A stretch of 64,000 bases of DNA. Origin: Stenomitos frigidus ULC18. Its GTDB lineage: Bacteria > Cyanobacteriota > Cyanobacteriia > Leptolyngbyales > Leptolyngbyaceae. The notes below the pieces were generated by a model. It had not been told where the DNA came from and did not search any database. It was given only the letters and a program-made list of their open reading frames with translations. This document shows, one piece after another, positions 6,497-21,244 of the stretch. How positions within the stretch are numbered: the first letter of the stretch is position 1; each line of letters starts with the position of its first letter. The stretch covers positions 1 through 64,000 of the forward strand of contig NZ_PVWK01000056.1 in the NCBI RefSeq assembly GCF_003003795.1, in the 5' to 3' direction. The position numbers were made by a program, and so were the translations under genes.

Positions 6497-7507
6497 TTAC
6501 TTAAAACGAATTCTGGGATCAAAAAAGGCGTAGGACAGATCCACCAGTAAGTTGATGAGGACAAAGGCGATCGCGACAATGATGACTCCTCCCTGCACTA
6601 CAGGGTAGTCTCGTGCCAGAATGCCGTCATAAATCCAGGAGCCAATCCCCGACCAGGAGAAAATCGTCTCGGTAAGAATGGCCCCACCCAACAGCGTGCC
6701 GAACTGTAGGCCAGCGATCGTCGTCATCGGTAAGAGGGCATTCTTCAATGCGTGCCGCAAAATCACCCAACGTTCCGGTAACCCTTTGGCGCGGGCAGTG
6801 CGAATATAGTCTTGCGAGAGGGTTTCTAGCATGGCGCTGCGAGTAATGCGAGCCAGAATTGCCAGCGGAATGGTGCCGAGCGCGATCGCGGGTAGAAGCA
6901 GATGAGCCAACACGTCTTTGAGAGCCGCGCCATCGAGTTTGAGTCCGGCATCCAGCACATAGAAGCCTGTAATGGGTTTGAAGTTAAACCCGAGGTCAAC
7001 ACTAATCCGTCCGCCCGGTGGTAGCCAGTGCAGATTGATCGCAAACAGATAAATCAACAGCAAGCCCAGCCAATACACAGGCAGCGAAACACCGATCAAA
7101 GAACCTATCATGGTCAGATTGTCTAACCACCGATTTTTACGGACAGCAGCAAGAATCCCGGCAGGCACTCCCAGCAGCAGGGCGATGAACATGGCAGCGA
7201 TCGATAGCTCTAAGGTGGCAGGAAAGCGAGTCCGAATTTCGTCCGCCACGGGAATACCGCTGATGATGCTAATCCCTAGCTTGAAGTGAATGAGGTTATT
7301 GAGAAAGATGAGGTATTGCGTCACCAGCGGTCGGTTTAACCCCAGTTGCTCTCTCAAAGCGGCAATTTGTTCAGGCGTTCCCCGTTCTCCTAACAGCGTC
7401 ACGGCAGGGTCACCAGGGATAAAGTGCAAAAAGCTAAAGACCAGTAGGGTGATACCCAGCAAAACAGGCAAGAGACTGAGCAATCGTTTGACGATGTAAA
7501 ACCACAC
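6497..7507 (-). CDS. OppB/DppB-type ABC transporter permease
   Basis: A 336-residue inner-membrane permease of the OppB/DppB/GsiC class. The N-terminus MWFYIVKRLLSLLPVLLGITLLVF, the segment FIPGDPAVTLLGERGTPEQI and the EAA loop RTARAKGLPERWVILRHALKNA are diagnostic. It should pair with the OppC-type permease at 3530-4384. In most genomes these two genes are adjacent; here a CHAT gene and two small genes on the other strand separate them. Substrate-binding and ATPase subunits are not in the neighbourhood. Confidence 0.92.
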   Translation of the reverse strand: MWFYIVKRLLSLLPVLLGITLLVFSFLHFIPGDPAVTLLGERGTPEQIAALREQLGLNRPLVTQYLIFLNNLIHFKLGISIISGIPVADEIRTRFPATLELSIAAMFIALLLGVPAGILAAVRKNRWLDNLTMIGSLIGVSLPVYWLGLLLIYLFAINLHWLPPGGRISVDLGFNFKPITGFYVLDAGLKLDGAALKDVLAHLLLPAIALGTIPLAILARITRSAMLETLSQDYIRTARAKGLPERWVILRHALKNALLPMTTIAGLQFGTLLGGAILTETIFSWSGIGSWIYDGILARDYPVVQGGVIIVAIAFVLINLLVDLSYAFFDPRIRFK

Positions 7508-7716
7508 AGGCGGTAACCAAAGAGCGGGTTAAATCAGCAATGATGATTACTCTCTAATGTTTGCGGCTTAATTTCAAGGAGCAACGGTTGATTCAATGGC
7601 TGCGATGGCGACTCCCGCATCTCAAGCCTTAAGGATCGTGGATTAATTAATAGACTTGTTGCTTAATAAAAGGTCGTAGAAGTGGTGCACAGACTGTCTT
7701 TCCCTTCCCTCTGCCG

Positions 7717-7966
7717 TTAAGCAGCTTCCAAATAGAAGTTCCATAACCCTGCGGCGGTCAGCATGAGATGATCATCAAAATCAGGCACACGATGCCGATA
7801 AATTGCCGATACTGCACCATCACGCTTCATCCCAGCATGGGCTGTTCGCAGGCCACCCGCTGAGCACTGAAGGCTTTGTTCTGCTGCTTTTGCTGTTCAG
7901 TGAGTGCTTTGCCTCTGGGCTTTTTAGGGGGCAAGTGGATGTTGACAAACTCGTTTTGCAAGCCCT
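7717..7966 (-). pseudogene. Transposase 3' remnant with frameshift
   Basis: Reading leftwards, GLQNEFVNIHLPPKKPRG and a Gln/Lys-rich stretch reach RVACEQ. After a frame change the sequence continues HAGMKRDGAVSAIYRHR, VPDFDDHLMLTAAGLW and NFYLEAA, stopping at 7717-7719. This is the conserved C-terminus of an IS5-like DDE transposase frequent in cyanobacteria. Only the last third survives, with at least one frameshift, and it is joined directly to another broken gene at about 7967. Confidence 0.7.
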
Positions 7967-8203
7967 GGGGTCATACAGACTATCATTCTGATCGAATGTG
8001 CCGTTATGGTTATCATCTCGATAGATTTTCGCCTCAGGAGTATTGTTAGAACTGCCATTGAGACTATGAATTGCTATGTTAAGGTTTGATGAGTTGTCAC
8101 CAGCATCGATCTTGACCTTAAAGACATCTACGAACTGTCCGTTATTGCCGCTCTGGTAGTGGCTAGGATTTGCATTAAGCGTACCAACATCGTAAGTAGA
8201 CAT
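7967..8203 (-). pseudogene. 5' fragment of an unknown Asn/Asp-rich protein
   Basis: ATG at 8203 follows AGGAGAAGAAA, a good ribosome-binding site. About 79 residues read MSTYDVGTLN, then FVDVFKVKIDAGDN, IYRDDNHNGTFDQND. The Asn/Asp-rich text resembles the beta-sandwich PPC-type or calcium-binding secreted proteins of cyanobacteria. At about 7967 the frame runs into a transposase remnant, so the gene lost its 3' part. It lies downstream of one copy of the shared 29-bp promoter element (8360-8388), which suggests it was once part of that regulon. Confidence 0.5.
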
Positions 8204-8359
8204 TTTCTTCTCCTGAATTTAGGTTGAGGTTAATTGGGCGATTATCCGTAGGTAAAATAGGGAGGATTAAGCCCCATTTTGGGCATTAAAACTGTCTTGC
8301 TTATGCAGGCAGTCCATCAACTTATCTAACCAGTGATTGATGGTTGATAATTTTTAGAA

Positions 8360-8388
8360 TAGAGAGCGATCGAGAAAAAGTCGGGAAG
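8360..8388 (-). promoter_or_regulatory. Shared 29-bp promoter element, copy 1
   Basis: Read leftwards it is three 11-bp units starting CTTCCC, TTTCTC and CTCTCT, overlapping the -10-like hexamer TATTCT. It faces the broken gene starting at 8203. The same ungapped arrangement occurs at 10447, 13540, 14392 and 19329. Confidence 0.65.
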
Positions 8389-8531
8389 ATTAATGAGTTC
8401 TATACTTACTGCTTTCATCTCCTCTCAATGCTGCAAGCAGCACTTTTTTTGGGATCTCTAACGCTAAACAGAGATAAAAAAGCGATCGTCCTCAACAACA
8501 GGACGATCGCACAGCACTCAAGCAGCATAAG

Positions 8532-8990
8532 TTATTGAAAATTTGCACCCACGACACAGACCTGATGCTTGTGGGCGATCGCGATCGTGGTTTCTGGGGT
8601 GAGTCGCAGTTCTTGCTCGGCTTGAGCTAACTCCTGCATAAACTGGGCGGCGATCGCGTTAGAAACGCCGACCAAAAATTTCGCTTGGGACGATCGCAAA
8701 GTAAAGGCGTGGGCAGCACCCGCAGGCAAGTTGATGAAATAACCAGGAGTTGCCTGCACAAGCTGATCCTCAATCTGAAGCTCGACTTCTCCCTCCAACA
8801 GGTAAGATACTTCATCCCAGGGATGACGATGCAGCGGCACGGGGCTGTCTCCAGTCATTAAGAATTCAAAGAATCGCCAACCGCGATCGTTGGGATCAAA
8901 TTTGTAGGTGATGATGTTGCCCAAAAACTTCAGCGTTTGACCCTCATCGGGTTTGAAAATGGTTGCGAGCTGTGATGATGTCGATCGCAT
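8532..8990 (-). CDS. Cupin-domain protein
   Basis: 152 residues from the ATG at 8990, which follows GGAGAA at short spacing; the open frame runs further upstream but without sense. A single cupin barrel is visible: the first metal motif GDSPVPLHRHPWDEVSYLLEG (HxH, Glu) and a second containing LPAGAAHAFTL. Cupins of this type bind a metal and act as dioxygenases, isomerases or sensors; the reaction is not evident. It is last in a same-strand run (10304 to 8532) probably driven from the shared element at 10447-10475. Confidence 0.82.
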   Translation of the reverse strand: MRSTSSQLATIFKPDEGQTLKFLGNIITYKFDPNDRGWRFFEFLMTGDSPVPLHRHPWDEVSYLLEGEVELQIEDQLVQATPGYFINLPAGAAHAFTLRSSQAKFLVGVSNAIAAQFMQELAQAEQELRLTPETTIAIAHKHQVCVVGANFQ

Positions 8991-9102
8991 AATTTCTCCA
9001 ATAGATGGGTTGGAATGAGGTCTAGAAAGGGTTCGTAATTGCGGCGATCGCGTGTTGACTAGAGAGGCGATCGCATAGAAAGGAGCAAAATAAGTGTTTA
9101 GC

Positions 9103-9564
9103 TCAACCCGCTGTTTGCATGGCTTGCAGAATGGCTTGCACGTTCTGATGCCGTTGCCCAGTGTACTCGCGCAAGCACTTGATTTTGCCCTGCTCGATTT
9201 CGTAGAACACCACGAGCCGACTAGAGAAAGGTTTGTTGGCTGCTTGACCATTGGCGAAAAACTCAAAGCCAACAGTGGTTTCGCTGACTACGATGGGATA
9301 CAGCAGCGTCAGTGCGGCTCTAACGTTAAGGTCTTCGGAGACTTTTTGCAGAATGGCAGTAATCTTCTGTTTGCCGTAAACCACGCCTGATGGAATGTAG
9401 GGGGAAGGGGCTTGAAACTCAACTTCCTCGCTCATGAGAGCGAGGAGATCAGTCCAATCTCCGGTGGCAATGCCCTTTTGGTGCGAGGCAAAGGCGTGTT
9501 GAGCCAACTGGAGAATTGCAGGTTGAGCGGAGGTTGCAGTATTGAATGCGAGTGCGGTATTCAT
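9103..9564 (-). CDS. SnoaL-like (NTF2-fold) protein
   Basis: The preferred start is the ATG at 9564 (MNTALAFNTA); the frame before it looks like spacer. The 153 residues carry the NTF2/SnoaL pattern: an N-terminal helix with GDWTDLLALMSEEVEFQAP, then YGKQKITAILQKV and strands ending REYTGQRH. The family includes polyketide cyclases, isomerases and stress-linked ketosteroid isomerase-like proteins, and no specific substrate is implied. It lies 112 bp upstream of the cupin gene on the same strand, in the peptide/cupin cluster. Confidence 0.8.
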   Translation of the reverse strand: MNTALAFNTATSAQPAILQLAQHAFASHQKGIATGDWTDLLALMSEEVEFQAPSPYIPSGVVYGKQKITAILQKVSEDLNVRAALTLLYPIVVSETTVGFEFFANGQAANKPFSSRLVVFYEIEQGKIKCLREYTGQRHQNVQAILQAMQTAG

Positions 9565-9672
9565 AGCGTTTCTTGATGAAATGGATGAGCGGTAAATGGT
9601 GAAATGAGCGAAGGTGGCGATCGCCAACAACCTAAAAAATGAAAGCACTCAATAGATTCAGAACAGAGTCAA

Positions 9673-9981
9673 TTAGTCGTGGACAATAACTCCAGTGCGC
9701 TTGACCTCGCGGATCATCACGCTGGTCTCAATTACTACTTCGGCTATCTCAGCAGCCGAGGTTTTAGATTCAGCACACTTGTCTTCTTGGCGATCGGCCT
9801 GGTTGACAATAATGCCCGTTATGATGAGGGTTTCGGCTTCCGCATCAACTTCAAAGCAGTTGCTTTCATCGGGTTTAATGTCATTAACAATGATGCCTGT
9901 CCTCATGACTGTTTCAGAATGCTTCTGTGATTCAGGCTCGTTGTCTTTGTTACGGTTAATATCATTGCTAATGATGTCCAT
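9673..9981 (-). CDS. 102-residue acidic repeat protein ending GVIVHD
   Basis: ATG at 9981 follows AGGGAG with eight-base spacing. The acidic product shows imperfect repeats of about 27 residues, each opening with a short aliphatic motif: IISNDI, then TGIIVNDI, TGIIVNQA, SVMIREV, and finally TGVIVHD at the C-terminus. No signal peptide is present. No family is recognised. The terminal GVIVxD is shared with the tiny secreted peptide encoded at 14057-14336, in both protein and DNA. Precursor or signalling roles are possible but unproven. Confidence 0.6.
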   Translation of the reverse strand: MDIISNDINRNKDNEPESQKHSETVMRTGIIVNDIKPDESNCFEVDAEAETLIITGIIVNQADRQEDKCAESKTSAAEIAEVVIETSVMIREVKRTGVIVHD

Positions 9982-10078
9982 TTGTTTCTCCCTACGTTGG
10001 ATTGAACTGTGCTCCAGCGGTTGTGAACTCAGGTTCAAAGCCTGCTCAACTTGCTGCGGTTGCCTGGATCGATGATTT

Positions 10079-10134
10079 AACTTAGAGGAGCGATTCTCAG
10101 AAGAGACGCTACGCGAACGAGAAGAAGTCGAGCA
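10079..10134 (-). promoter_or_regulatory. Degenerate, interrupted copy of the shared promoter element
   Basis: Read leftwards, GACTTCTTCTC and then ATCGCTCCTCTAAGTTAAA match the two halves of the 29-bp element. Between them sits about 21 bp containing GCGTAGCGTCTC, a known style of cyanobacterial mini-insertion, flanked by a possible AGAAG duplication. It lies about 95 bp upstream of the 102-residue repeat protein. The alignment needs small gaps, so this is tentative. Confidence 0.3.
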
Positions 10135-10157
10135 GCGCGATCGCTCCATTCAACTGC

Positions 10158-10304
10158 TTAGCCTTTAACGGGAAACCATTTGCAAACTAACTTGCCATCA
10201 GCTTTGAACCAGGATGCAGTTAAACCACGCTTGGTTGCAGTGGGTGCCGCCATCAGGGGCAGCGCGGTCGTTTCAGATTGAACTTGAAGGGTTAAAGCGG
10301 TCAT
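10158..10304 (-). CDS. 48-residue small protein, unknown function
   Basis: ATG at 10304 is preceded by GGAGTAAC at ideal spacing. The product starts MTALTLQVQSETTALPLM and ends with a basic aromatic tail, GLTASWFKADGKLVCKWF followed by PVKG. It has one Cys and no signal peptide. It is first in the leftward run 10304 to 8532, 139 bp downstream of the -10 of the shared element at 10447-10475. No family recognised. The ribosome-binding site and promoter position support it as a real gene. Confidence 0.6.
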   Translation of the reverse strand: MTALTLQVQSETTALPLMAAPTATKRGLTASWFKADGKLVCKWFPVKG

Positions 10305-10446
10305 GATGTTACTCCATAAAGTAGGGGCTGAATAATCGATGGCAGAGTTGAACATCGGTTGGAATAAAATGGAAGCAGCACTGGCATCAAGGCAAACTGC
10401 TGTTGTCTCCTGGAATGGTTGCTCTCTGTCTCGACACTTTTGATAG

Positions 10447-10475
10447 TAGAGAGCGATCGAGAAGAACTAGAGAAG
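10447..10475 (-). promoter_or_regulatory. Shared 29-bp promoter element, copy 2
   Basis: Read leftwards the 11-bp units start CTTCTC, CTTCTC and CTCTCT, overlapping the -10-like TACTAT. It faces the small-peptide/SnoaL/cupin run on the minus strand. It lies back to back with the response-regulator gene starting at 10540, so one bound regulator could affect both. Confidence 0.7.
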
Positions 10476-10539
10476 AGTGAATTGTTGAGAAAACTATTGT
10501 GCGATCTGGTTCATCCACTCCTTTAGTCGGACGCTGACC

Positions 10540-12825
10540 ATGCGAATTTTGCTCGTCGAGGATGACAAGGTTTTACTGAATGTGCTGCTGGAAACCTTGA
10601 CCAGGCAACACTATGTTGTGGATGTTGCAGAAGATGGTCAAACTGGCTGGGACTATGCCCAAAGCACCAGCTATGATCTGATTTTGTTAGATGTGGGACT
10701 GCCTGAACTTGATGGCATCGCGTTATGTCAACGGTTGCGAACGGAAAAATGCACCAGCCCGATTCTGCTGATGACCGCGCGCGAGGCGAATGGCGATCGC
10801 GTGCGTGGACTCGATTCTGGTGCCGATGATTATTTAATTAAACCGCTGGATTTGGCAGAACTTCAGGCACGGATTCGGGCACTGTTGCGGCGCGGTGAAG
10901 TGGCTCCCACGACAGTGTTGCAATGGGGGCAGTTGCGCCTCGACCCGCGCAGTTGTCAGGTGCAGTATGGCGAGAAGGTGTTGGGGTTAACGCCCAAAGA
11001 ATATAGTTTGCTGGAGGTGTTTCTGCGAAATCCTGCCCGTGTCTTTAGTCGCGGACAATTGGTCGAACATCTGTGGACGTTTGACGACCCGCCGCAAGAA
11101 GACAGTGTCAAAGCCCACATCAAGGGACTCCGGCAAAAACTAAAAGCTGCTGGAGCCGCAGATTGGATCGAGAATGTCTATGGATTAGGCTATCGTTTGC
11201 GGCAGGAAACTAACGATCGCCCAACCGAGTCTCCTGTAAACCCCAAAAGTTCAGATAAAGAGACACTGCCACTCTCGCCTGCTCCGGTGGTTGAGATGCA
11301 GTTTCATCAGGGACTCGATCACTTGTGGAAACAAAGCCGTGAATTGATGACAGAACGGCTGGCTGTGCTGCAACAAGCCGTCGCTGCTGTTGAGCAAAAC
11401 ACCTTAGCGATTGAATTGCGCCAAGCCGCAAGACAAGCCGCGCATAAGTTGGCGGGGGTGCTGGGGATGTTCGATCGCCCAGAGGGCACCGTACTCGCTC
11501 GTCAGATTGAGGAGATTTTATTAGGGCAGGGAGATTGCCGTCAGGAAGACGATCTAGGCGGATTAGTACAACAACTCGATCGCTTACTAGATTTGCAGAA
11601 CGTTGAGCCAGTCGCCGCTTCAACGTCAGATCGCCTGCTGTTAATCGATCCTGATCCTGCATTGGGGCAAGCCTTACAGCAGTTAGGACAAGCCGCGTCG
11701 CTGCATTGGCAACAGGTTGATACCCTGGAGGCTGCGAAACTTTGGCTCCAGAGTCATACGCCAGACTTGGTGGTGTTGAGCATTGATGGTTTGGGGCAAC
11801 GAGAACTCAGTTTGGTACTGTTGGCAGAACTGGCTGCCCGCACGCCTGCCATTCCTGTGCTAGTCATTGCTTCCGCCGATGGACTCTTGGATCGAGTCAC
11901 GGTTGCTCGATCGGGTGGACAAGCGTTTTTGGTGCAGCCTATGACTGCCGCCCAAGTGTGGGCATCAGCAACGCAATTATTGCAGCAAGCTCAATCGCGC
12001 TTGGTGAGAGTGCTGGTGGTGGATGATGACCCGATTTTTTTGACGGTGCTCCGATCGATGCTGGAACCGTGGGGAATGCGTTTCACCGGACTCGATCAGC
12101 CGTTGCAGTTTTGGGATGTCTTGCGCTCAACAGATCCAGACCTGTTAATTTTGGATGTCGATATGCCCCAAGTCAGCGGCATTGAGCTCTGTCAGGCAGT
12201 TCGCACTGATCCAACCTGGCAAGGATTACCGATTTTGTTTCTCACGGCACACAGCGATCGCGACACGATTCAACAGGGGTTCGCGGCTGGAGCAGATGAT
12301 TATGTGACGAAACCTGTGGTCGGCGCAGAACTCATTACTCGCATCACCAATCGACTCGATCGCGCCCATCTGCTACAAACCCTTTCCAGTCGCGATCCCC
12401 TCACAGGCTTAACCAATCAATCCCAATCCAGTCGTGAGTTAGAACAGTCTTTGACAGAATCACAGCCTTTTTGTTTAGCCGTTTTTGTGGTCGTTGAGCT
12501 GGCTCAACTCAATCTCCAGTATGGTCATGCAACAGGTCATCAAGTGTTGCAAGCTTGGGGGCGCAGGCTGCAAATGAGTTTGCGAAGAGCAGAAATTGTG
12601 AGCTACTGGGGCAATGGTGAGTTTGTCATCGGTTTACCAGGAGTGACCAAACTAGAAGCGATGCGGCAACTCTCTGAACTGCAAACTGCACTGCAACAGC
12701 AACAATTTACCGATTCAGATGGCAGACAATTTCAAGCGATCGTTCACGTTGGGCTGGCAGCGTATCCAACTGACGGAGTGACATTACAATCTCTGTATCA
12801 AGCTGCCAGCCAGCACTTATCCTAG
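10540..12825 (+). CDS. Hybrid response regulator: REC-wHTH-Hpt-REC-REC-degenerate GGDEF
   Basis: A 761-residue cytoplasmic regulator. The N-terminal receiver has phospho-acceptor Asp51 in LILLDVGLP and Lys in YLIKP. An OmpR/PhoB winged helix follows (about 125-225; LTPKEYSLLEVFLRNP, VKAHIKGLRQKL). An Hpt-like helical part has His302 in AAHKLAG. A receiver-like segment lacking the usual Asp context (VVLSIDGLG) comes next, then a full receiver (LLILDVDMP, YVTKP). The C-terminal GGDEF-like domain has GNGEF at its signature, so cyclic-di-GMP synthesis is doubtful. It is the only DNA-binding regulator in this cluster and a candidate to read the 11-bp repeats at 8360, 10447, 13540, 14392 and 19329. 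Confidence 0.9.
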   Translation: MRILLVEDDKVLLNVLLETLTRQHYVVDVAEDGQTGWDYAQSTSYDLILLDVGLPELDGIALCQRLRTEKCTSPILLMTAREANGDRVRGLDSGADDYLIKPLDLAELQARIRALLRRGEVAPTTVLQWGQLRLDPRSCQVQYGEKVLGLTPKEYSLLEVFLRNPARVFSRGQLVEHLWTFDDPPQEDSVKAHIKGLRQKLKAAGAADWIENVYGLGYRLRQETNDRPTESPVNPKSSDKETLPLSPAPVVEMQFHQGLDHLWKQSRELMTERLAVLQQAVAAVEQNTLAIELRQAARQAAHKLAGVLGMFDRPEGTVLARQIEEILLGQGDCRQEDDLGGLVQQLDRLLDLQNVEPVAASTSDRLLLIDPDPALGQALQQLGQAASLHWQQVDTLEAAKLWLQSHTPDLVVLSIDGLGQRELSLVLLAELAARTPAIPVLVIASADGLLDRVTVARSGGQAFLVQPMTAAQVWASATQLLQQAQSRLVRVLVVDDDPIFLTVLRSMLEPWGMRFTGLDQPLQFWDVLRSTDPDLLILDVDMPQVSGIELCQAVRTDPTWQGLPILFLTAHSDRDTIQQGFAAGADDYVTKPVVGAELITRITNRLDRAHLLQTLSSRDPLTGLTNQSQSSRELEQSLTESQPFCLAVFVVVELAQLNLQYGHATGHQVLQAWGRRLQMSLRRAEIVSYWGNGEFVIGLPGVTKLEAMRQLSELQTALQQQQFTDSDGRQFQAIVHVGLAAYPTDGVTLQSLYQAASQHLS

Positions 12826-12919
12826 CTGTAGCCCAGATTTGTCCAGCGTTGAAGGATCAATCTCAGGAGAAAGGCTCTCAAGGGTTTCTAAACACGGATT
12901 TGTTAAAAAAGCTCATCTG

Positions 12920-13507
12920 TTAAAGCCCCTGCCACTCAACAACATCTTCGATCTGAGGAGAGAGAGGGCGACTACCCGGTTTGACTACATAGACTCGTTT
13001 CTCTTGTTGGACGTAAACCTTCATACCCACAATGCAAGGGACGAATAGATTTAAAGAAACAGAGCGCTGGGGAGTGGGGTTGGAATCGACGTGAATCAAC
13101 CCCTCATGTAATAAAACCACATCTCCAGGGGTGTAAACACATTGGCTGTCGGGAACAAGCGTTGAGTCAACCTGCTGATAAGTAGTCTCCTTTAAAGCTC
13201 CCGATATTACACATGCCATTCCCCAAGCCCGACCATGATCATGAGGCAGTAGCGAATGATCGTACGGCTCACGATCAAGCAGAAATAACTCATACTGATC
13301 ACAAAACCGAAGCATCTTACGAGGGGCTTGCTCTGGATTGATGTCTTCTACTTGATGTGTCAATCGCTTAGTAAGTGACTTTAGCATTCCACGCAACTCG
13401 GCTTGTGCAGAGTGAGTTTGGGGAGAGGTGTTGCGTTCAATCAACTGGCAAAACTTGATGTGATATTCGTCTAGCAACGCATTTCTGTAGTCAACTGCAA
13501 CAACCAT
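12920..13507 (-). CDS. Cysteine dioxygenase-like cupin
   Basis: 195 residues from the ATG at 13507 (MVVAVDYRNALLDEYH). The upstream part of the open frame is promoter DNA. The core PHDHGRAWGMACVISGALKE and HEGLIHVDSN supply the three His ligands expected for a cysteine-dioxygenase-type iron cupin. Relatives oxidise thiols such as cysteine or mercaptopropionate, and the substrate here is inferred only to class. The start lies 29 bp from the -10 of the shared element at 13540-13568, so it belongs to the local regulon. Confidence 0.8.
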   Translation of the reverse strand: MVVAVDYRNALLDEYHIKFCQLIERNTSPQTHSAQAELRGMLKSLTKRLTHQVEDINPEQAPRKMLRFCDQYELFLLDREPYDHSLLPHDHGRAWGMACVISGALKETTYQQVDSTLVPDSQCVYTPGDVVLLHEGLIHVDSNPTPQRSVSLNLFVPCIVGMKVYVQQEKRVYVVKPGSRPLSPQIEDVVEWQGL

Positions 13508-13539
13508 AAAATTTTTCCTTAACTCGATGACTTTAACAA

Positions 13540-13568
13540 TAGGGAGCGATTGAGAAGAACTAGGGAAG
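13540..13568 (-). promoter_or_regulatory. Shared 29-bp promoter element, copy 3
   Basis: Read leftwards the 11-bp units start CTTCCC, CTTCTC and CTCCCT, running into TATTGTTAAA, a -10-type sequence 29 bp from the cupin start at 13507. This copy gives the best view of the arrangement as a promoter. Confidence 0.75.
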
Positions 13569-13657
13569 GCTAATCGGAAGCGCCAAAAAGTAGAACCGTG
13601 ATGAAGGGCGATCGCCAAGAAAAAGTGCGTCAGGAAAATCCCAACGCATCCAGCTAT

Positions 13658-13680
13658 ATCTGAAACCCCCCCTTTCAGAT
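13658..13680. terminator. Hairpin after the 14.0-kb minus-strand genes
   Basis: ATCTGAAA at 13658-13665 pairs perfectly with TTTCAGAT at 13673-13680 across a seven-C loop. It sits about 100 bp past the stop of the gene at 13782-14012, where a terminator would be expected. There is no strong U-run, so a termination role is tentative. Confidence 0.4.
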
Positions 13681-13781
13681 CTAAACTTGATTCAAGTTAA
13701 TGGCAGGATGAAGCGCTTACTTCTAGCACAGCGATTTGGCTATCCTGCCTGATGAATGATTCGATATGAGCAAAGCGAAGT

Positions 13782-14012
13782 TTAGCGATAGAAAGACTGC
13801 TCCAGCCAGATCCGCACTTCCTGCTCAGAGTCTAAAACAGCAGATTCGCGCGTACCAGGATGATAGACATTCCACCGGAGATTGCCGGAGCGATCGACAC
13901 TTTGCCAGACTTTCGGTTCAGACTGACGCGCAACTCCATCCAGTAGACCCTGCCACATTTTCCGTAGCCACAGACCTAAAAGCGTCCACTGCGTTTTTGA
14001 TTGCATTTTCAT
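13782..14012 (-). CDS. 76-residue conserved-type small protein
   Basis: ATG at 14012 follows GGAG at nine-base spacing. The product begins with a short amphipathic segment (TLLGLWLRKMWQGLLDGV) and has a compact domain: EPKVWQSVDRSGNLRWNVY, then SEQEVRIWLEQ near the end. This pattern resembles small cyanobacterial proteins of unknown function known to the reader only as hypothetical. It lies 45 bp downstream of the disrupted secreted-peptide gene and was probably co-transcribed with it from the element at 14392-14420. Confidence 0.65.
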   Translation of the reverse strand: MKMQSKTQWTLLGLWLRKMWQGLLDGVARQSEPKVWQSVDRSGNLRWNVYHPGTRESAVLDSEQEVRIWLEQSFYR

Positions 14013-14056
14013 GGTGAGTCTCCATTAAAGAAGGGATTGTTGATGTTTTAATTGGG

Positions 14057-14336
14057 TTAGTCGCGGACAATGACACCAGCGTGAGCAACAGACGAAAAGC
14101 CTGCTAATACCAAATCGAATTGCAAAGACTACAAATCTTTCCCTCATCCCCAGCCCTTCTCCCGCAGGAGAAGGGAGCTAAAGGCAATGTCCCTCGCCCC
14201 TATAGCCCGATGGGCATTCAAGAAAGGGAGAGGGATTGAGGGTGAGGGCGGCTTGATTGATCTGTAGCGCCTATTTTGGGCTTTGGTATAAACCCAAAGC
14301 GGCGACAATAACGGCAGCAAAAATCTTTGTGTTCAT
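14057..14336 (-). pseudogene. Secreted mini-peptide gene split by a MITE
   Basis: ATG at 14336 lies about ten bases after AAGGGGAA. Codons 1-15 (MNTKIFAAV then a hydrophobic run) meet a 182-bp element at 14288. Removing the element and one TA copy leaves exactly 96 bases: 31 codons plus TAA at 14057-14059. The restored peptide is a complete Sec signal peptide ending SSVAHA, with a predicted mature hexapeptide GVIVRD. As it stands, the interrupted frame stops after 21 residues. The C-terminal motif matches GVIVHD of the protein at 9673-9981. It lies 51 bp from the -10 of the shared element at 14392-14420. Confidence 0.72.
14107..14288. mobile_element. 182-bp MITE with TA target duplication
   Basis: The ends are ATACCAAATC at 14107 and, read from the other side, TACCAAAGCC at 14288. 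TA flanks it at 14105-14106 and 14289-14290, as for IS630/mariner elements. One subterminal stretch (GCTACAGAT) also occurs in the end of the IS630-type element at 175-241. Inside is a hairpin (CCCTTCTCC / GGAGAAGGG, 14153-14174). No coding capacity. Confidence 0.8.
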
Positions 14337-14391
14337 GGAAGGTTCCCCTTAAGAAACGGGTTGACCGAGCGGTGTTGCTTAGGTTTAACAA

Positions 14392-14420
14392 TAGGAAGCG
14401 ATCGGGAAGAAGTAGGGAAG
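14392..14420 (-). promoter_or_regulatory. Shared 29-bp promoter element, copy 4
   Basis: Read leftwards the 11-bp units start CTTCCC, CTTCCC and CTTCCT, running into TATTGTTAAA as in copy 3. It faces the secreted mini-peptide gene (start 14336) and the 76-residue gene beyond it. Confidence 0.72.
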
Positions 14421-14588
14421 CTGGCTGTTTGGTGGAAGAAAATTTTGGAGCGATCGCTGCCAATCCGATCCTTGGTTTTGGAATCGCTGCCTATCCTATG
14501 GGCGAATTGACTTTACAATCGTGATATTCACGTTGCAGTCAGTTCTCAAGCCAGATGTAGTCTGTCCTTCCTACCCACTAAAAGCGCT

Positions 14589-14936
14589 ATGAAAACGATC
14601 GGTGAACTGAAACTAGAAACCGATGTGCCTGTGGTGATCACCGATCAACAGGGCTTTATCACCTATATCAATGATTGCTTTACGTCGATCTTTGGCTGGA
14701 GTGAAGCTGAAATCACCGGACAAATGATCACGATCATCATCCCAATGGGGTTTCATGACCCACACCATCTTGGTTTTTCCCGCTTTCTCTCAACTCACAA
14801 ATCGACGATTCTGAACCATCCCTTACAGTTAAAAGCGATCACCAAAGACGGCAGAGAAATTGCCTCTGAGCATTTACTGATGGCAGAGCAAGAGCAGGGA
14901 CAGTGGTTTTTTGCCGCCACTCTGCGTCCGCTTTAA
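14589..14936 (+). CDS. Stand-alone PAS-domain protein
   Basis: 115 residues forming one PAS domain: PVVITDQQGFITYIND, then FGWSEAEITGQMI, and the C-terminal strand GQWFFAATLRPL. HDPHHLGFSRFL is a variant loop seen in PAS proteins placed before sensor kinases. It lies 11 bp upstream of the multi-PAS kinase gene on the same strand and is likely its co-transcribed sensory partner. Ligand or cofactor is not evident. Confidence 0.85.
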   Translation: MKTIGELKLETDVPVVITDQQGFITYINDCFTSIFGWSEAEITGQMITIIIPMGFHDPHHLGFSRFLSTHKSTILNHPLQLKAITKDGREIASEHLLMAEQEQGQWFFAATLRPL

Positions 14937-14947
14937 GGAGACGATCC

Positions 14948-17900
14948 ATGAGCACTCATTTAGAGAGTTTAGTTAACCAACTCCGATCGACGTTGGGACG
15001 AATGGAAATGGCACTGGGGGCGATTGCCGATGCCATCGTGTGGATTGGTCAAGATGGCAAGATTCAGTGGTGCAACGCGGCTTTCGATCAGTTGGTGAAG
15101 CAACCCCACATTTTGGTGTTGGGGAAGACGTTTAGTGACTTATTACCGCTGAGTCAGGCAGGTCAAGCCGTGCCGCTGACACATTACCCAGACGCAAGAG
15201 TGTTAGGTGGCGAATATCCCATCACAGAATATGAGTTTCAGCAGGGCGATCGTCCCCTCGTGCTAGAAATCGCAGGGAATTGCCTGGAGCGATCGGAGGG
15301 CGATTCCGAGCAGGGGCTACCGTCAAACTCTGCGGTACTGGTCATCCGTGATGTCACCCAGGCAAAGCAAGCACAAGCAGATTGCCAGCAAGCAGAGCAG
15401 CAACGGCAGCAGTTTTTCGCGCTGATGCGGGCAACGCTAGAGTCGATGGATGATGCCGTTTTAGTGCTGACGACCGATCGTCAGTCTCCCATCTACAACC
15501 AGAAGTTTCTGGCAATGTGGTCAATGCCGGAAGCCCTGATGCAGCCCGGTCGAGAAGATGAGCGCATTCAATGGTTACTTGAGCAAACCAAAGACCCAAA
15601 AGCCTTTCTGGCGAGAATTTGGGAACTGTTTCGCGATCGCCCAGCCGAAACGGCACTGGAGTTGATCGAGATGAAAGATGGGCGCATGATCGAGCGTCTG
15701 GCTCAGCCCCTCTGGCACAACGACCAGATTCTCGGTCGCGTCTGGACGTATCGGGATGTGACTCAGAGCGTGCAAACCGAACAAGCCCTCAGAGAGCGAG
15801 AGGCTAAATTTCGCAGTCTGGTCGAAAATGCGAACGACCTCATTTTTGCGATCGATGCCACTGGAGTCATTTCTTACATTTCCCCCAATGTTGAAACCAT
15901 GATGGGTTTTACCGCAATGGCGATGGAAGGTGACTCCTTCATGCCTTTCATTCATCCCGACGACCTACAACGCTGTTTGGATGCCCTCCAGCATGTCACT
16001 GTTAGTGGTCAGGGGCTTTCCAATCTTGAATATCGTGCGAGACACCAGGATGGAAGTTGGCACTGGTACATTGCTAGTTTGGCTGCGCCTCAAGCGGTGA
16101 GTGACCAGCATTTAATTGTGGGAATTGCACGAGACATCACGAAAGCAAAGCGTGACGAGATCATTCGCCAACAGACCGAAGCCGCGTTACGGCAAAGCGA
16201 ATTGCGCTTTCAAGCCATTTTTGAGAATGCCGCTGTTGGCACGACTTTAGCAGCGCAAGACGGCACCGTTCTACAAGTGAATCCAGCCTGGTTACAAGCG
16301 CTGGGCTATAGCGAAGCAGAGTTTCGACAAATGAAATTTGCTGACTATACGCATCCCGATGATGTGGCGGCAGATGTGGTGCTGACTCAAGCCGTCTTTG
16401 CTGGCGCGCGGGACTCCTTTCAATTAGAAAAACGCTATATCCGCAAAGATGCCAGCCTCTTTTGGGGTCGTTTAACCGTTTCTCCCATTCGTAATGCCGA
16501 AGGTACCGTTCAATTTACGCTGGCGTTGATGGAAGATATTAACGAACGGAAGCAGGCTGAACGCGATCGTCAGCGAGCCGAAGCCGCTTTAAGTGAGAGC
16601 GAAACAAAGTTTCGGCGCATTGTTGAAAACACCAATGACATCATTTCCCTGATTGATCTGGAAGGGCAAATTGTCTACATTTCTCCTAATCTCACCAATC
16701 TCACAGGCTATGCCACTATCGAATTGGAGGGCGCACTGTTTATGCCTTTCATCCATCCTGATGATCAAGCAGCCTGTTTGAATGCCTTCCAAAGCATTTT
16801 GACAACGGATCAGAGGCAGTGTGAAGTTGAGTACCGAGCGAAAATCAAGGATGGTCGCTGGCAGTGGCAGAGTACGAGCTTATCGACCCTAGAAGATGTT
16901 AGGGGAAACTTGCTGGTGCTTAGCGTTGCGCGTGATGTCACTGATCGCAAGCAAGCCGAGGAAGCCCTGCGCCGCAGTGAGCTAAAATACCGCAATATTT
17001 TTGAAAACTCTCAAGTGGGGATTGGTCGCACACGCTTGCAGGATGGGCTGTTCCTGGATGTGAATCAGCGTTATGCCGATATTATGGGCTTCGACTCCAC
17101 CGCTGACCTCATTGGCAAGCGATTCACCACCGAATTCTATGCGAATCCTCACGATCAACAGAAAATTCTGGCAGAGCTAGAACAGCATGGGGAGGTGCGC
17201 AACTTTGAAGAGGAACTGCGCTGTCCTGACGGATCAACCGCCTGGGGTTTATTGTCGCTCCGGTTAAACGCTGACGAAGACTGTCTTGACTTTGTGCTGG
17301 TAGACATTAGCGATCGCAAACGGCTTGAAGAAGAATTGCGGCAATCGCAGCAATTTCTGGACAACATTATCGACAATATTCCACTGGCTGTTTTTGCCAA
17401 AGATGTCAATGATGACTTTCGCTATGTTCTCATCAACAAAGGTTCAGCAGGCATTTTAGGCTTCACCAAAGAGGTCGCACTAGGACTCAATGACTATGAG
17501 CTAACGCCGCAAGCGCAAGCAGACTTTTATCGAGCTGAAGACCTGGCGACGTTAGCGCAAGGAACCCTGCTGGAGTGTGGTGAACAGTGGAAACAGGTGC
17601 AGGCAGACTCAGACGAAACCATTGCCATCCGCTATTGGAAACTGCCCCTCTTTGACCCACAAGGCAACGCCACACATCTGCTGTGCCTGAGTGAAGACAT
17701 TACCGATCGCAAACAGGCTGAAGCCGCGATCGCACGACGTGCGCGCATGGACAGCCTATTCAGCAGTATTTCGCGTCAGTTTGTGGATCAGGAGGCAGAC
17801 ACCGCCATTCACTTTACGCTGCAAGCGATCGCTCAATTCATTGGGGTTGAACGGTGCTGCCTGTTTGAATACTCTGAGCCACAAAGACGGTTACACACGC

Positions 17901-19270
17901 TTTATGAGTGGTGCCATGCTGACATGCAACCATTAACCGACAGTGCCCGCAGCCTAGCGCTTGAACAGTTTCCCTGGTATCACGCTCACATCTTAAATGG
18001 CAAGCTTGTGCAAATTGCCCAGGTTGCAGCCTTGCCACCAGAAGCGACAGCCGAGCAAGCGATGTTTCAGAGTCAGCACATTCAATCTGTGCTCGATGTA
18101 CCGCTGGTTTACGCCGATAAGGTGGTCGGCGTTTTAGGGGTGGATGTCGTATCTTGCTCTAAAACATGGAGCCAGGAAGAAATTAATTTCTTGCAACTGG
18201 TGAGCGAACTGATCGCCATTGGGCGCGCTCGCCACCAGGCAGAAGAAAAGTTCACCAAAGCCTTTCGTGCCAGCCCCAGCCCGATCGCGCTCACCACTTT
18301 GCCAGAAAGACGGTTCCTTGATGTGAATACGAGCTTTCTTAAAATGAGTGGCTGCTCCTTAGAGGAAATCATCGGTTACACGGCTCCAGAACTCGACCTC
18401 GGAGTGCCCCAGGAAACCTACAGCACCGCGATTCAACAATTGCTGGAAACGGGATCGCTTTACAACCAGGAAGTTGAGTTTCGCACCAAGTCCGGTGAAG
18501 CCAGGATCGTGCTGCTTTCCATTGAGCTGATTGACCTCTCTGGTACTCAGTGCGTCTTAAATATCATCAACGATATTACCGAGCGTAAGCAGCTTGAAAA
18601 CGAATTCATCTCCCTGGTGAGCCACGAACTGCGGACTCCACTCACCTCTTTGATGGGTGGACTCTATCTTTTAGGGTCAGGGCAGCTAGGCACGCTCACG
18701 CCCAAGGGTCAAAACGTCCTCAACATTGCCACCACCAACACCGAACGCTTAACGCGTCTGGTCAACGACATTCTTGATTTGGAACGCATGAAAGCGGGCA
18801 AGATGAGTGTGCAGCCTGTAGCGTGCAATGCTGCGGATCTGCTGCTCCAGGCAGCAGATGCCATGCAAGCGATGGCAGAACAGGCACAGATTACGCTGGT
18901 CACCGCACCGCTCACTGCGACCCTCTTTGTTGACCCGGATCGCATCTTGCAAACCCTGACCAATCTCCTCAGCAATGCCATCAAGTTCTCGCCCGGTGGC
19001 AGCACCGTCTGGCTTAGTGCCCAGTTGCACGCCGATCACATTCAGATCCAAGTGCAAGACCAGGGACGCGGGATTCCACCTGATAAATTGCAGCTCGTGT
19101 TCGATCGCTTTCAGCAGGTCGATCAGTCGGATGCTCGCCAGAAAGGAGGCACGGGTTTGGGGCTTGCCATTTGCCGCAATATTACAGAGCAGCACGGCGG
19201 CAAAATTTGGGTTGAGAGCGTTTTCGGTCAGGGCAGTACCTTTTTCATGACGTTGCCCTTGGTGCCTTAA
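14948..19270 (+). CDS. Multi-PAS/GAF sensor histidine kinase
   Basis: A 1440-residue kinase from the ATG at 14948, which follows AAGGAG. Seven PAS-type domains are visible at about 20-925, separated by the recurring D[IV]T(D/E)RKQAE linkers. A GAF domain follows (about 930-1090; FIGVERCCLFEYSEP), then an eighth PAS. HisKA has its His in SHELRTPL near 1220. The HATPase has N-box NLLSNAIKFSPG, DQGRGIPPDKL, FDRFQQVD and GGTGLGLAI. No membrane segments, so it is a cytoplasmic sensor. PAS copies 3 and 5 share MPFIHPDD, suggesting recent duplication. The nearest phospho-acceptors are the regulators at 10540 and 19422. Confidence 0.93.
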   Translation: MSTHLESLVNQLRSTLGRMEMALGAIADAIVWIGQDGKIQWCNAAFDQLVKQPHILVLGKTFSDLLPLSQAGQAVPLTHYPDARVLGGEYPITEYEFQQGDRPLVLEIAGNCLERSEGDSEQGLPSNSAVLVIRDVTQAKQAQADCQQAEQQRQQFFALMRATLESMDDAVLVLTTDRQSPIYNQKFLAMWSMPEALMQPGREDERIQWLLEQTKDPKAFLARIWELFRDRPAETALELIEMKDGRMIERLAQPLWHNDQILGRVWTYRDVTQSVQTEQALREREAKFRSLVENANDLIFAIDATGVISYISPNVETMMGFTAMAMEGDSFMPFIHPDDLQRCLDALQHVTVSGQGLSNLEYRARHQDGSWHWYIASLAAPQAVSDQHLIVGIARDITKAKRDEIIRQQTEAALRQSELRFQAIFENAAVGTTLAAQDGTVLQVNPAWLQALGYSEAEFRQMKFADYTHPDDVAADVVLTQAVFAGARDSFQLEKRYIRKDASLFWGRLTVSPIRNAEGTVQFTLALMEDINERKQAERDRQRAEAALSESETKFRRIVENTNDIISLIDLEGQIVYISPNLTNLTGYATIELEGALFMPFIHPDDQAACLNAFQSILTTDQRQCEVEYRAKIKDGRWQWQSTSLSTLEDVRGNLLVLSVARDVTDRKQAEEALRRSELKYRNIFENSQVGIGRTRLQDGLFLDVNQRYADIMGFDSTADLIGKRFTTEFYANPHDQQKILAELEQHGEVRNFEEELRCPDGSTAWGLLSLRLNADEDCLDFVLVDISDRKRLEEELRQSQQFLDNIIDNIPLAVFAKDVNDDFRYVLINKGSAGILGFTKEVALGLNDYELTPQAQADFYRAEDLATLAQGTLLECGEQWKQVQADSDETIAIRYWKLPLFDPQGNATHLLCLSEDITDRKQAEAAIARRARMDSLFSSISRQFVDQEADTAIHFTLQAIAQFIGVERCCLFEYSEPQRRLHTLYEWCHADMQPLTDSARSLALEQFPWYHAHILNGKLVQIAQVAALPPEATAEQAMFQSQHIQSVLDVPLVYADKVVGVLGVDVVSCSKTWSQEEINFLQLVSELIAIGRARHQAEEKFTKAFRASPSPIALTTLPERRFLDVNTSFLKMSGCSLEEIIGYTAPELDLGVPQETYSTAIQQLLETGSLYNQEVEFRTKSGEARIVLLSIELIDLSGTQCVLNIINDITERKQLENEFISLVSHELRTPLTSLMGGLYLLGSGQLGTLTPKGQNVLNIATTNTERLTRLVNDILDLERMKAGKMSVQPVACNAADLLLQAADAMQAMAEQAQITLVTAPLTATLFVDPDRILQTLTNLLSNAIKFSPGGSTVWLSAQLHADHIQIQVQDQGRGIPPDKLQLVFDRFQQVDQSDARQKGGTGLGLAICRNITEQHGGKIWVESVFGQGSTFFMTLPLVP

Positions 19271-19328
19271 TAGGGACAGATCTTTGCCCTTACTAAGAAA
19301 GGTGTGGTGGCATAAAACCACAAGTAAT

Positions 19329-19357
19329 CTTCCCTAGTTCTTCTCGATTGGTCTCTA
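19329..19357 (+). promoter_or_regulatory. Shared 29-bp promoter element, copy 5
   Basis: Here on the plus strand: 11-bp units starting CTTCCC, CTTCTC and GTCTCT, overlapping the -10-like TACCTT 61 bp before the receiver gene at 19422. Orientation relative to the downstream gene is the same as in the four minus-strand copies. Confidence 0.7.
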
Positions 19358-19421
19358 CCTTTATAGAGAAGCCCCCCAACTTTGCCCCGCCGCCGCGAAA
19401 CACTACAACGGAGTCCTTTCA

Positions 19422-19802
19422 GTGCACATGTGTGTCTTAATTGTTGACGATGAGGCAGATGTGCGGGCGATCGCCCAAATGGGACTGGAAATGGCAGCCG
19501 ATTGGCACGTACTCACGGCAAGTTCTGGTGCAGAAGCGTTGGCGATCGCGGCCACCACTCAACCCGATGTCATCTTGCTCGATCTGATGATGCCTGATAT
19601 GGATGGTCGAACCACGCTGCAACACCTGAAGGTAAACCCTGCGACTCGACAGATTCCGGTCATCTTTGTGACCGCTACGGTGAAGCCATCTGAGCAGGAG
19701 AGCTTGGCTCGATTGGACGTTGTAGCCATCTTTGCAAAGCCTTTTAACCCTCTGAAACTAGCCAACCAGATTACTACAGCTTTAGAGCTCACATCACTGT
19801 AG
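19422..19802 (+). CDS. Single-domain response regulator
   Basis: A 126-residue CheY-like receiver: acidic pair in VLIVDDEADV, phospho-acceptor Asp in DVILLDLMMPDMDG, Thr in IFVTATV and Lys in FAKPFNP. No output domain. The GTG at 19422 has GGAG eight bases upstream; an ATG two codons later is possible. It follows the multi-PAS kinase and has its own copy of the shared promoter element. It is a plausible phosphate relay or sink for that kinase. Confidence 0.9.
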   Translation: MHMCVLIVDDEADVRAIAQMGLEMAADWHVLTASSGAEALAIAATTQPDVILLDLMMPDMDGRTTLQHLKVNPATRQIPVIFVTATVKPSEQESLARLDVVAIFAKPFNPLKLANQITTALELTSL

Positions 19803-19864: not shown

Positions 19865-21244
19865 ATGAAAAGCCACATTCTACCGCTGACCAACCCTCAA
19901 TCGATACGCGCACGCTTCCTGCCGCCGCAGCCACTCATGCGCCTCTTGCCCAGTCTCAGCACGGGTTTAACCACAGGCGCGATCGGGGTCATCTTTGACT
20001 TATCCTACGCTGCGCTGATCTTCTCTGGCAGCCTTGCCAGTCACCTTGCCGCTGGCATTAGCTTAGTGCTGTTTAGTGCCGCCACCACGCGCATTGCGAT
20101 CGTCCTGACCAGTTCGTTTCCTGGCATGGTCGCAGACTTAGGCACCGTTCCCACAGCAATTCTTGCCTGGAGTGTGGGCATGGTGGTGAAACAAATGCCT
20201 ACAACGGCCTCCTCAGCCGAAATTTTGGTGACGGCGCTGGCGACGATCGCCCTCACGTCCCTGCTCACGGGTACTGTGCTGCTGCTGCTGGGAGTGCTGC
20301 GGTTAGGTGGCTGGGTGCGATCGCTCCCCACGCCCGTTCTGGGCGGCTTTATCGCTAGCACCGGCTGGCTATTGGTGAAAGGAGCCTGTAAAATCATGAC
20401 CGATAAACCTTTGGAACTTGCCCAACTGCCCGCGCTGATGCAGCCTGAGCGTCTGATGCACTGGCTGCCTGGACTCTTCTTCGCCCTCTACTTGCTTGTC
20501 ATCACGAAACGTCGCACACATCCCCTGGTGATGATTACCAGCTTGTTGGGTGCGATCGGGCTGTTCTACTTGTTGCTGCCGCTGACGGGTACCCCTGCCG
20601 CCGCCGCAAGCCAGCACGGCTGGACCTTAGCCATTCCTACTCAAGCTGGTTTTGTAGGCATCTGGCGGTCGCTCCACTGGTCAGATTTTTGGCACATTCA
20701 CTGGGACGCGATCGCAACACAATGGCTGTGTTTGGCAACGGTGACCGTCACCACGGCGATCTCGCTCTTGATGAACGTCAGCAGCATGGAGTTGATGAGC
20801 AACAAAGCCATTAATCCTAACCAGGAATTGAAAGTAGCAGGTCTCGCAAATCTAGCGATCAGTCTGTGGGGCGGCATTCTCAGCTACCACTCGTTGAGCA
20901 AATCAGTGCTGGCACACAAGCTGGGCAGTCGCGGACGACTCATAACCCTGATTGATAGTGCTGTGTTCATTCTGGTGCCGCTGCTGGGTTCTTCGCTCCT
21001 GGCATACTTTCCGAAGCCTGTACTGAGTGGCTTGCTGTTATTTTTGGGCTTGTCGCTGCTGTTGGAATGGGTCTATGCTGCCTGGTGCAAGCTTTCCCGC
21101 TGGGACTACTTCATTGTGCAACTGATCTGGATCATCAGTGGCACAGTCGGCTTCTTACAAGGCTTAACAGTGGGTTGGGTCGTCGCGATCGGACTGCTTG
21201 CCATGCAGTCAAAACATTGTAAAAGCCAAACTTTTGACCTTTAA
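19865..21244 (+). CDS. SulP-type anion transporter without STAS domain
   Basis: 459 residues, almost all membrane-embedded, with the SulP core: SLSTGLTTGAIGVIFDLSYAAL, LGGWVRSLPTPVLGGFIAS, and NQELKVAGLANLAISLWGG followed by SYHSLSKSVLAHKLGS. It would move sulfate, bicarbonate or another anion across the plasma membrane; the substrate is open. Most SulP proteins end in a STAS domain, often followed in cyanobacteria by a cyclic-nucleotide-binding part. Here the protein stops right after the last membrane helix (MQSKHCKSQTFDL). An IS5-type transposase begins 275 bp downstream, so loss of the C-terminus by rearrangement is possible. Confidence 0.85.
   Translation: MKSHILPLTNPQSIRARFLPPQPLMRLLPSLSTGLTTGAIGVIFDLSYAALIFSGSLASHLAAGISLVLFSAATTRIAIVLTSSFPGMVADLGTVPTAILAWSVGMVVKQMPTTASSAEILVTALATIALTSLLTGTVLLLLGVLRLGGWVRSLPTPVLGGFIASTGWLLVKGACKIMTDKPLELAQLPALMQPERLMHWLPGLFFALYLLVITKRRTHPLVMITSLLGAIGLFYLLLPLTGTPAAAASQHGWTLAIPTQAGFVGIWRSLHWSDFWHIHWDAIATQWLCLATVTVTTAISLLMNVSSMELMSNKAINPNQELKVAGLANLAISLWGGILSYHSLSKSVLAHKLGSRGRLITLIDSAVFILVPLLGSSLLAYFPKPVLSGLLLFLGLSLLLEWVYAAWCKLSRWDYFIVQLIWIISGTVGFLQGLTVGWVVAIGLLAMQSKHCKSQTFDL

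Follow-up and report, generated by a model that had tools for sequence, protein, structure and literature searches.

A 29-base-pair (bp) element, found five times in a 64,000-nucleotide stretch of Stenomitos frigidus ULC18 (contig NZ_PVWK01000056.1, positions 1 to 64,000; hereafter the window), is likely to be the promoter operator of a multidomain response regulator that is encoded among its copies (761 amino acids, aa; 10540–12825, plus strand; hereafter the 10540 regulator). On this reading the regulator would bind as a winged-helix dimer, activate the promoters and be fed by a phosphorelay. What we observe directly is the element, its position and conservation, its co-occurrence with the regulator, a match between one regulator residue and the form of the site, the synteny of the signalling genes and conserved phospho-acceptors.

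Inspection of the sequence found ungapped copies at 8360–8388, 10447–10475, 13540–13568 and 14392–14420 on the minus strand and at 19329–19357 on the plus strand (copies 1 to 5), exactly where a sequence-only reading of this DNA had placed them. A position weight matrix of the five gives each copy 46.2–49.4 bits (38.1–44.7 in leave-one-out scoring), and the runner-up place in the window reaches 8.1. When the window was simulated 100 times with a third-order Markov model, the top score was 22.1 bits and the maxima averaged 4.1. The genome-wide scan proposed in that reading, run over 6,984,011 bases in 167 contigs with a degenerate 29-mer and up to three mismatches, returned only these five copies, all inside 11 kb; the reversed pattern gave no match in the same genome at the same limit.

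Read towards the promoter, the copies follow CTTCYCnAnTT / YTTCYCRATYG / STYYCTA and then four bases that complete a TANNNT hexamer. The overlap with such a -10-like hexamer, at element bases 28–33, holds for every copy: TATTCT (8356–8361), TACTAT (10443–10448), TATTGT (13536–13541), TATTGT (14388–14393) and TACCTT (19356–19361). Three 11-bp units had been proposed. The first two are strong, in copy 1 as elsewhere, and the third is weak at bases 23–27, so a model of three equal units is rejected in part.

The geometry recurs in other genomes. TA at bases 28–29 together with T at base 33 was present in 163 of 177 sites found with the 22-bp core (3.9 expected), which leaves a constant 5-bp gap between core and TANNNT; selection accounts for some of the TA, as the 29-mer used to retrieve many of the loci itself ends in TA. 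Base 33, which lies outside every search pattern, is T in 134 of the 138 sites that lie far enough from a locus end to be analysed. Open reading frames (ORFs) of at least 120 aa contain only 4 of these 138 sites; for random places the figure is 539 of 690. ORFs of at least 90 aa start within 250 bases downstream of 89 of the 138 and on the opposite side of 54, a weak asymmetry. In one locus (L098, 1124–1179), a VOC-like ORF is preceded by two overlapping element copies offset in tandem by 27 bp.

OmpR/PhoB-type sites are direct repeats spaced 10–11 bp near the -35 position. The element has this layout, with two tandem 11-bp units at a fixed gap to TANNNT, which supports the site type proposed in the sequence-only reading. 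By analogy, it would occupy the place of the -35 box, as in PhoB-type activated promoters. Since the site also spans the -35 zone and reaches the -10 hexamer, a bound protein could instead block the polymerase there, but a repressor is unlikely; the replaced -35 box and the fixed gap in 163 of 177 sites correspond rather to the layout of PhoB-type activation.

The sequence-only reading had itself named a dispersed repeat unrelated to gene starts as the finding that would speak against it. Duplication does occur, as the 27-bp tandem in L098 and duplicated Nostoc units of site plus peptide gene (see below) illustrate. The element can nevertheless hardly be a dispersed repeat or a mobile promoter spread in this way: there are five copies in 7.0 Mb, all within 11 kb, few sites lie inside ORFs, and many genera carry them. 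Many copies placed regardless of genes, as in a miniature inverted-repeat transposable element (MITE), were not seen, and we rejected this candidate.

Element and regulator occur together in other cyanobacteria. The element was found at 22.9–40.1 bits in all eight loci of the closest regulators (L036–L043, 12–20 kb), in six of them less than 400 bases from the regulator start; no place of at least 14 bits was present in 27 shorter loci of other matches (L009–L035) or in L044–L047. With up to three mismatches allowed, the 42 genomes of the same family yielded 62 sites in 13 genomes, against one match of the reversed pattern. One of these genomes (G010) carries 12 sites spread across the genome, so the system described earlier as local is so in S. 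frigidus ULC18 and not in its relatives.

A scan of named genomes gave 71 regulator loci from, among others, Nostoc, Scytonema, Calothrix, Brasilonema, Hassallia, Mastigocoleus and Leptolyngbya. We used 69 (L116–L184) and dropped L185 and L186, which are GGDEF-only matches outside cyanobacteria. These 69 loci (1.29 Mb) contain 86 places above 15 bits, with none in the reversed control, and in 42 of them the element exceeds 19 bits, within 10 kb of a 10540-type regulator. The loci were fetched via the regulator and the 13 training sites come partly from recurring genomes; the comparison is thus footprinting rather than an unbiased sample.

Across 290 genomes of the class, the regulator motif HLWTFDD (searched as DNA) is present in 19, sites at up to two mismatches in 29 and both in 18 (Fisher p 3.3e-20, a statistic that ignores kinship). 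Eight of the 11 genomes with sites only hold an ortholog of 65–74% identity with VK[AS]H in the recognition helix, which the strict HLWTFDD motif had overlooked. Together with the residue match described next, footprinting and co-occurrence support the earlier proposal that the 10540 product reads the element.

The site has two forms, CTTC..CTTC and CTCC..CTCC, which we call dialects and label below by the third base of each unit (TT, CC and mixed forms); in both, base 25, the third base of the weak third unit, is usually C. In all 52 rows with a dialect call, the regulator encoded nearby has a recognition helix with VKAH for CTTC..CTTC (22 rows) and VKSH for CTCC..CTCC (30). Among 230 regulator columns, residue 192 (Ala or Ser) is the sole perfect separator of the dialects, with 71 of 71 distinct rows; the second-best column separates 95.8%. 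The dialect of a row is the majority of sites near its regulator or, for 20 rows, genome-wide, and identical rows were collapsed. The 71 rows are those with a dialect call (thus without L122, L156, L237 and L243) and a readable winged helix (without L161, L164, L179, L180, L181 and L184); L240, from a genome with a mixed site (G230), is also omitted, and a contrary site on another contig of G061 lies outside the test. Across the family genomes, 33 of 33 sites are TT with Ala, and 21 of 27 are CC and one TT with Ser.

The match also had predictive value. For 22 regulators with no site within 10 kb we predicted the dialect beforehand, and the prediction was borne out. Their genomes contain 140 sites, against 5 matches of the reversed control, and 21 of the 22 have sites. 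At up to two mismatches, 12 of 12 sites in Ala genomes are TT, whereas none of 90 in Ser genomes are (55 CC, 23 CA, 7 AC, 3 CG and 2 TC); at up to three mismatches the TT counts are 17 of 18 and 3 of 110. G067 has two weak sites only, one of them not TT. The Nostoc genome G074, whose 12 of the 140 sites were counted apart from these tallies, has both a Ser and an Ala regulator (L131 and L183) and both site types; of its four TT sites, three share a contig with the Ala-type regulator. It is a natural test of insulation between the two regulator/site pairs.

A structural role of residue 192 can be proposed from homologs. In an alignment with BasR/PmrA it falls on the valine of E-V-H-I-H-N, and PMC3973317 equates PmrA Asn196 with PhoB Arg201; from these two correspondences, residue 192 would take the position of PhoB Val197. 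According to the same paper, Val197 touches thymines in both half-sites (PMC3973317).

A separate site variant, TTTCTT[TG]ACTTCTTCCCAGTTGCT[TC]TCTA, with three mismatches, recurs at G072:C2:83177, G074:C210:24457 and G078:C68:28890. It was found in genomes with a Ser-type regulator and is perhaps the site of another regulator.

The 10540 regulator itself consists of a receiver (REC), a Trans_reg_C winged helix, an Hpt domain, two further REC domains and a degenerate GGDEF domain (GNGEF); residue 192 is Ala. Its OmpR/PhoB membership is clear from family matches above the cut-off (Response_reg 3–113, Trans_reg_C 147–220). The closest full-length regulators share 62–63% identity (G021, G010), others 59–63% over the first 355–373 residues (G030, G033, G008, G026, G002) and one 70% over residues 1–230 (G017). 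All 90 rows with VK[AS]H, a few of them more distant paralogs, have Asp51, and His302 and Asp539 are each present in 85 of 85 aligned rows; in the second REC the Asp is often missing. The REC-winged helix-Hpt-REC order with conserved phospho-acceptors is that of an RcaC-type relay regulator. Active diguanylate cyclases have a GG[DE]EF active site. Here the motif is GNGEF in 60 of 90 rows, with Gly at the third position in all 83 aligned rows, and cyclase activity is therefore unlikely.

The proposed sensor is a multi-PAS/GAF histidine kinase (1440 aa, 14948–19270, plus strand), immediately upstream of which lies a gene for a 115-aa PAS-domain protein (14589–14936, plus strand). Copy 5 lies between the kinase gene and that of a single-domain receiver (126 aa, 19422–19802, plus strand), which it leads. 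The end of the kinase (about residues 1093–1438, PAS-HisKA-HATPase) shares 54–70% identity with the kinases that immediately precede this receiver gene in relatives. In the 33 receiver loci listed, the window included, a kinase lies upstream in 30 and an element, at up to four mismatches, is present in 23; only matches with an upstream kinase or a site were listed, and some genomes are counted twice. In two loci (L041, L086) a large kinase, about 30% identical, stands directly behind the regulator. This synteny supports the kinase as the likely sensor, as had been suggested, and suggests a phosphorelay similar to RcaE/RcaF/RcaC. The most likely order of transfer would be from the kinase to the receiver, on to the Hpt domain and then to the receiver domains of the regulator itself. 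With the element in front of the receiver gene, the relay would amplify itself. Behind the receiver gene lies one for a SulP-type transporter (19865–21244), possibly co-transcribed from copy 5.

In the mechanism that we propose, the winged-helix dimer would read the two tandem 11-bp units (CTTCYCnAnTT CTTCYCGATYG) upstream of TANNNT, the units would stand in for the -35 box, and the regulator would activate the promoter. The output would comprise small peptides, a SnoaL-like protein and cupins in the window and, in relatives, small, RiPP-type (ribosomally synthesised and post-translationally modified) or secreted peptides with export proteins.

Several observations weigh against this reading. 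In G061, a TT site precedes the receiver gene and a TA site lies on the same contig, while the only close ortholog is Ser-type. That contig (C160, L092) encodes a kinase, the receiver with its TT site and a GKLVCKW peptide with the T/A site. A second, Ala-type ortholog sought in this genome was not found; the best match is Ser-type at 68% and the others reach at most 57%. Three Ser genomes (G026, G061 and G002) have four further mixed sites, and single units with the other base occur in L118, L129, L137, L171 and G230 (Ala). Sites with no close ortholog are present in G181 and G260 and, as one weak site each, in G028 and G060. Conversely, G221 (no site at two mismatches) and G066 (none at three) have an ortholog, which contradicts a strict pairing. 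Ala192 is not diagnostic, because distant paralogs without a site (L013, L018, L044) carry it as well. The element is absent from 10 of the 33 receiver loci, and kinase and receiver genes often lie at a distance from the regulator gene; synteny is therefore the basis for assigning them to it.

Phylogeny belongs on the same side. The tree requires at least three residue changes and two or three dialect changes. An attempt to prove independent residue switches on it failed: a single Ser clade was not rejected (approximately unbiased, AU, test, p 0.77), and the independent-pairs test found one starred pair (p 1). A single Ala/Ser switch could suffice to explain the match, which is strong in pattern but weak in the number of events behind it.

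Some of these points would fit a different DNA-binding protein as the reader of the element (an OmpR-type paralog or a special sigma factor), with the 10540 regulator a mere neighbour. Candidates abound, with 6–24 regulator matches in each of 58 genomes, and in G053, one of the genomes with sites only, a 231-aa regulator with VKAH and 56% identity lies about 400 bases from its site. The four genomes with a site and no close ortholog, and the TT site of G061 beside a Ser-type ortholog, point the same way. Site presence, position and dialect nevertheless track the clade of the 10540 regulator, down to the contig of the Ala-type regulator in G074, and the loci of other matches (L009–L035, L044–L047) are free of sites at the threshold given above. 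We regard a different reader as improbable; because of the G061 result, we raised its standing slightly and lowered that of the 10540 regulator to the same small extent.

Each copy in the window faces an ORF on its own strand, as claimed earlier, although two of the five target ORFs look damaged. Copy 2, which is divergent from the regulator gene, heads a run of four genes on the minus strand: a 48-aa peptide with a GKLVCKW end (10158–10304), a 102-aa protein with loose TGIIVN/TGVIVH-like repeats (9673–9981), a SnoaL-like protein (153 aa, 9103–9564) and a cupin protein (152 aa, 8532–8990). Relatives of the 48-aa peptide lie beside sites in L043, L092, L116, L117 and L124; for the 102-aa protein, a motif search among the other loci examined found no relative. 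Copy 3 leads a 195-aa protein (12920–13507, minus strand) with a weak similarity to cysteine dioxygenase (CDO_I, E 0.048, below the cut-off).

The damaged targets are those of copies 1 and 4. The former is a 127-aa ORF (7820–8203, minus strand) that, judged by eye and without a homology search, appears truncated (7400–8203). The latter is a 21-codon ORF (14271–14336, minus strand) interrupted by a MITE-like dispersed repeat (14105–14292) with 21 matching pieces in the same genome, itself included. Further along, a 76-aa protein (13782–14012, minus strand) has relatives that are directly element-led in L077, L079, L084, L102 and L111. Family searches with the window peptides 10161–10304, 9676–9981 and 13785–14012 returned no family. 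Genes for a CHAT-domain protein (4583–6022) and a caspase-domain protein (22393–24687) flank the cluster, and an IS4/5-type transposase lies at 21519–22394. Given two damaged-looking targets out of five, the window may be an outpost in decay of a system that relatives have in richer form.

In relatives, targets were read by eye from the listed ORFs, which do not cover every gene of each regulon. Recurrent element-led ORFs encode the receiver, cupins, SnoaL-like proteins, peptides ending in GKLVCKW, a family of about 95 aa that includes the window ORF 13782–14012, and a 160-aa protein (MIHHISIAV) that is VOC-like by eye, a 130-residue piece of which had no Pfam match. Family searches confirmed an NHLP-leader precursor, a mersacidin-family precursor, an NHLP secretion protein, an HlyB-type exporter, RTX repeats, methyltransferases, HlyD adaptors, acyl carrier protein and Coq4; Nif11-leader precursors were found close to the cut-off. 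The putative regulon is local only in S. frigidus ULC18; elsewhere it extends to small peptides, RiPP precursors and secretion of the NHLP type and of type I.

Six Nostoc loci (L217–L222) contain tandem units of about 235 bp, each with an element and a 40-aa peptide ending in YVCWICS[NS]CW. A family search with this Cys/Trp-rich peptide gave no match, and it is a candidate RiPP family. ORFs of 408 and 657 aa lie beside the array in all three Nostoc loci examined, and L217 has an M50-type protease (barely above the cut-off) and a TPR protein there.

On a broader view our judgement is evenly balanced: the element and regulator would be an old master switch for cyanobacterial peptide natural products, with one code and one clade of relay regulators retuned via Ala/Ser192. 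In Nostocales and further cyanobacteria, such a code would control small signalling-like peptides as well as RiPP precursors and their export by NHLP and type I systems. Residue 192 would alter base 3 of both half-sites together and so permit two insulated copies in one genome, as in G074.

Many RiPP and secretion clusters of cyanobacteria are not expressed in culture, and few of their regulators are known. From its sequence, the pair of regulator and promoter tag looks like an unrecognised switch for peptide production; we found no description of the system in the open-access literature, where the element-core and peptide strings were also unmatched. If the proposal is right, the tag together with the regulator, kinase and receiver would let such genes be predicted and switched on. 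For winged-helix regulators the Ala/Ser–T/C match offers a specificity code that can be tested directly: nature supplies controls on either side, and one genome has both versions.

Among known systems, RcaC shares with the 10540 regulator the order receiver, winged helix, Hpt and receiver; the latter differs in an extra REC, a degenerate terminal GGDEF and another site sequence. RcaC recognises the L-box, with TTGCACA repeats, a motif that the element consensus does not contain. Unlike RcaE, the PAS/GAF kinase has no visible bilin motif, and the target lists read include peptide and secretion genes. PMC8256508 describes RcaE-RcaF-RcaC as the relay of complementary chromatic acclimation. The parts found here are those of this relay.

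CcaR recognises the G-box, CTTTNCNATTT repeats upstream of phycobilisome genes, and this half-site is by eye close to CTTCYCnAnTT. CcaR is a simple regulator that serves phycobilisome genes, whereas here we find a relay regulator with other targets. Two papers describe CcaS-CcaR as a system whose OmpR-type regulator has its activating site ahead of the cpcG2 promoter (PMC8256508, PMC12461855).

That the regulon serves chromatic acclimation in the manner of RcaC/CcaR and responds to light is very unlikely in spite of these resemblances in half-site, domain order and separate receiver. No phycobilisome gene was noticed among the listed ORFs, by eye and without a systematic search, and the L-box is absent. 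The kinase part common to most relatives starts after the GAF domain, in which no bilin-type motif was seen by eye.

The pho box consists of tandem 11-bp units that replace the -35 box, as the element would. PhoB Val197, with its thymine contacts (PMC3973317), would stand at the place of Ala/Ser192. The two systems differ in site sequence and in targets, and the 10540 regulator is multidomain.

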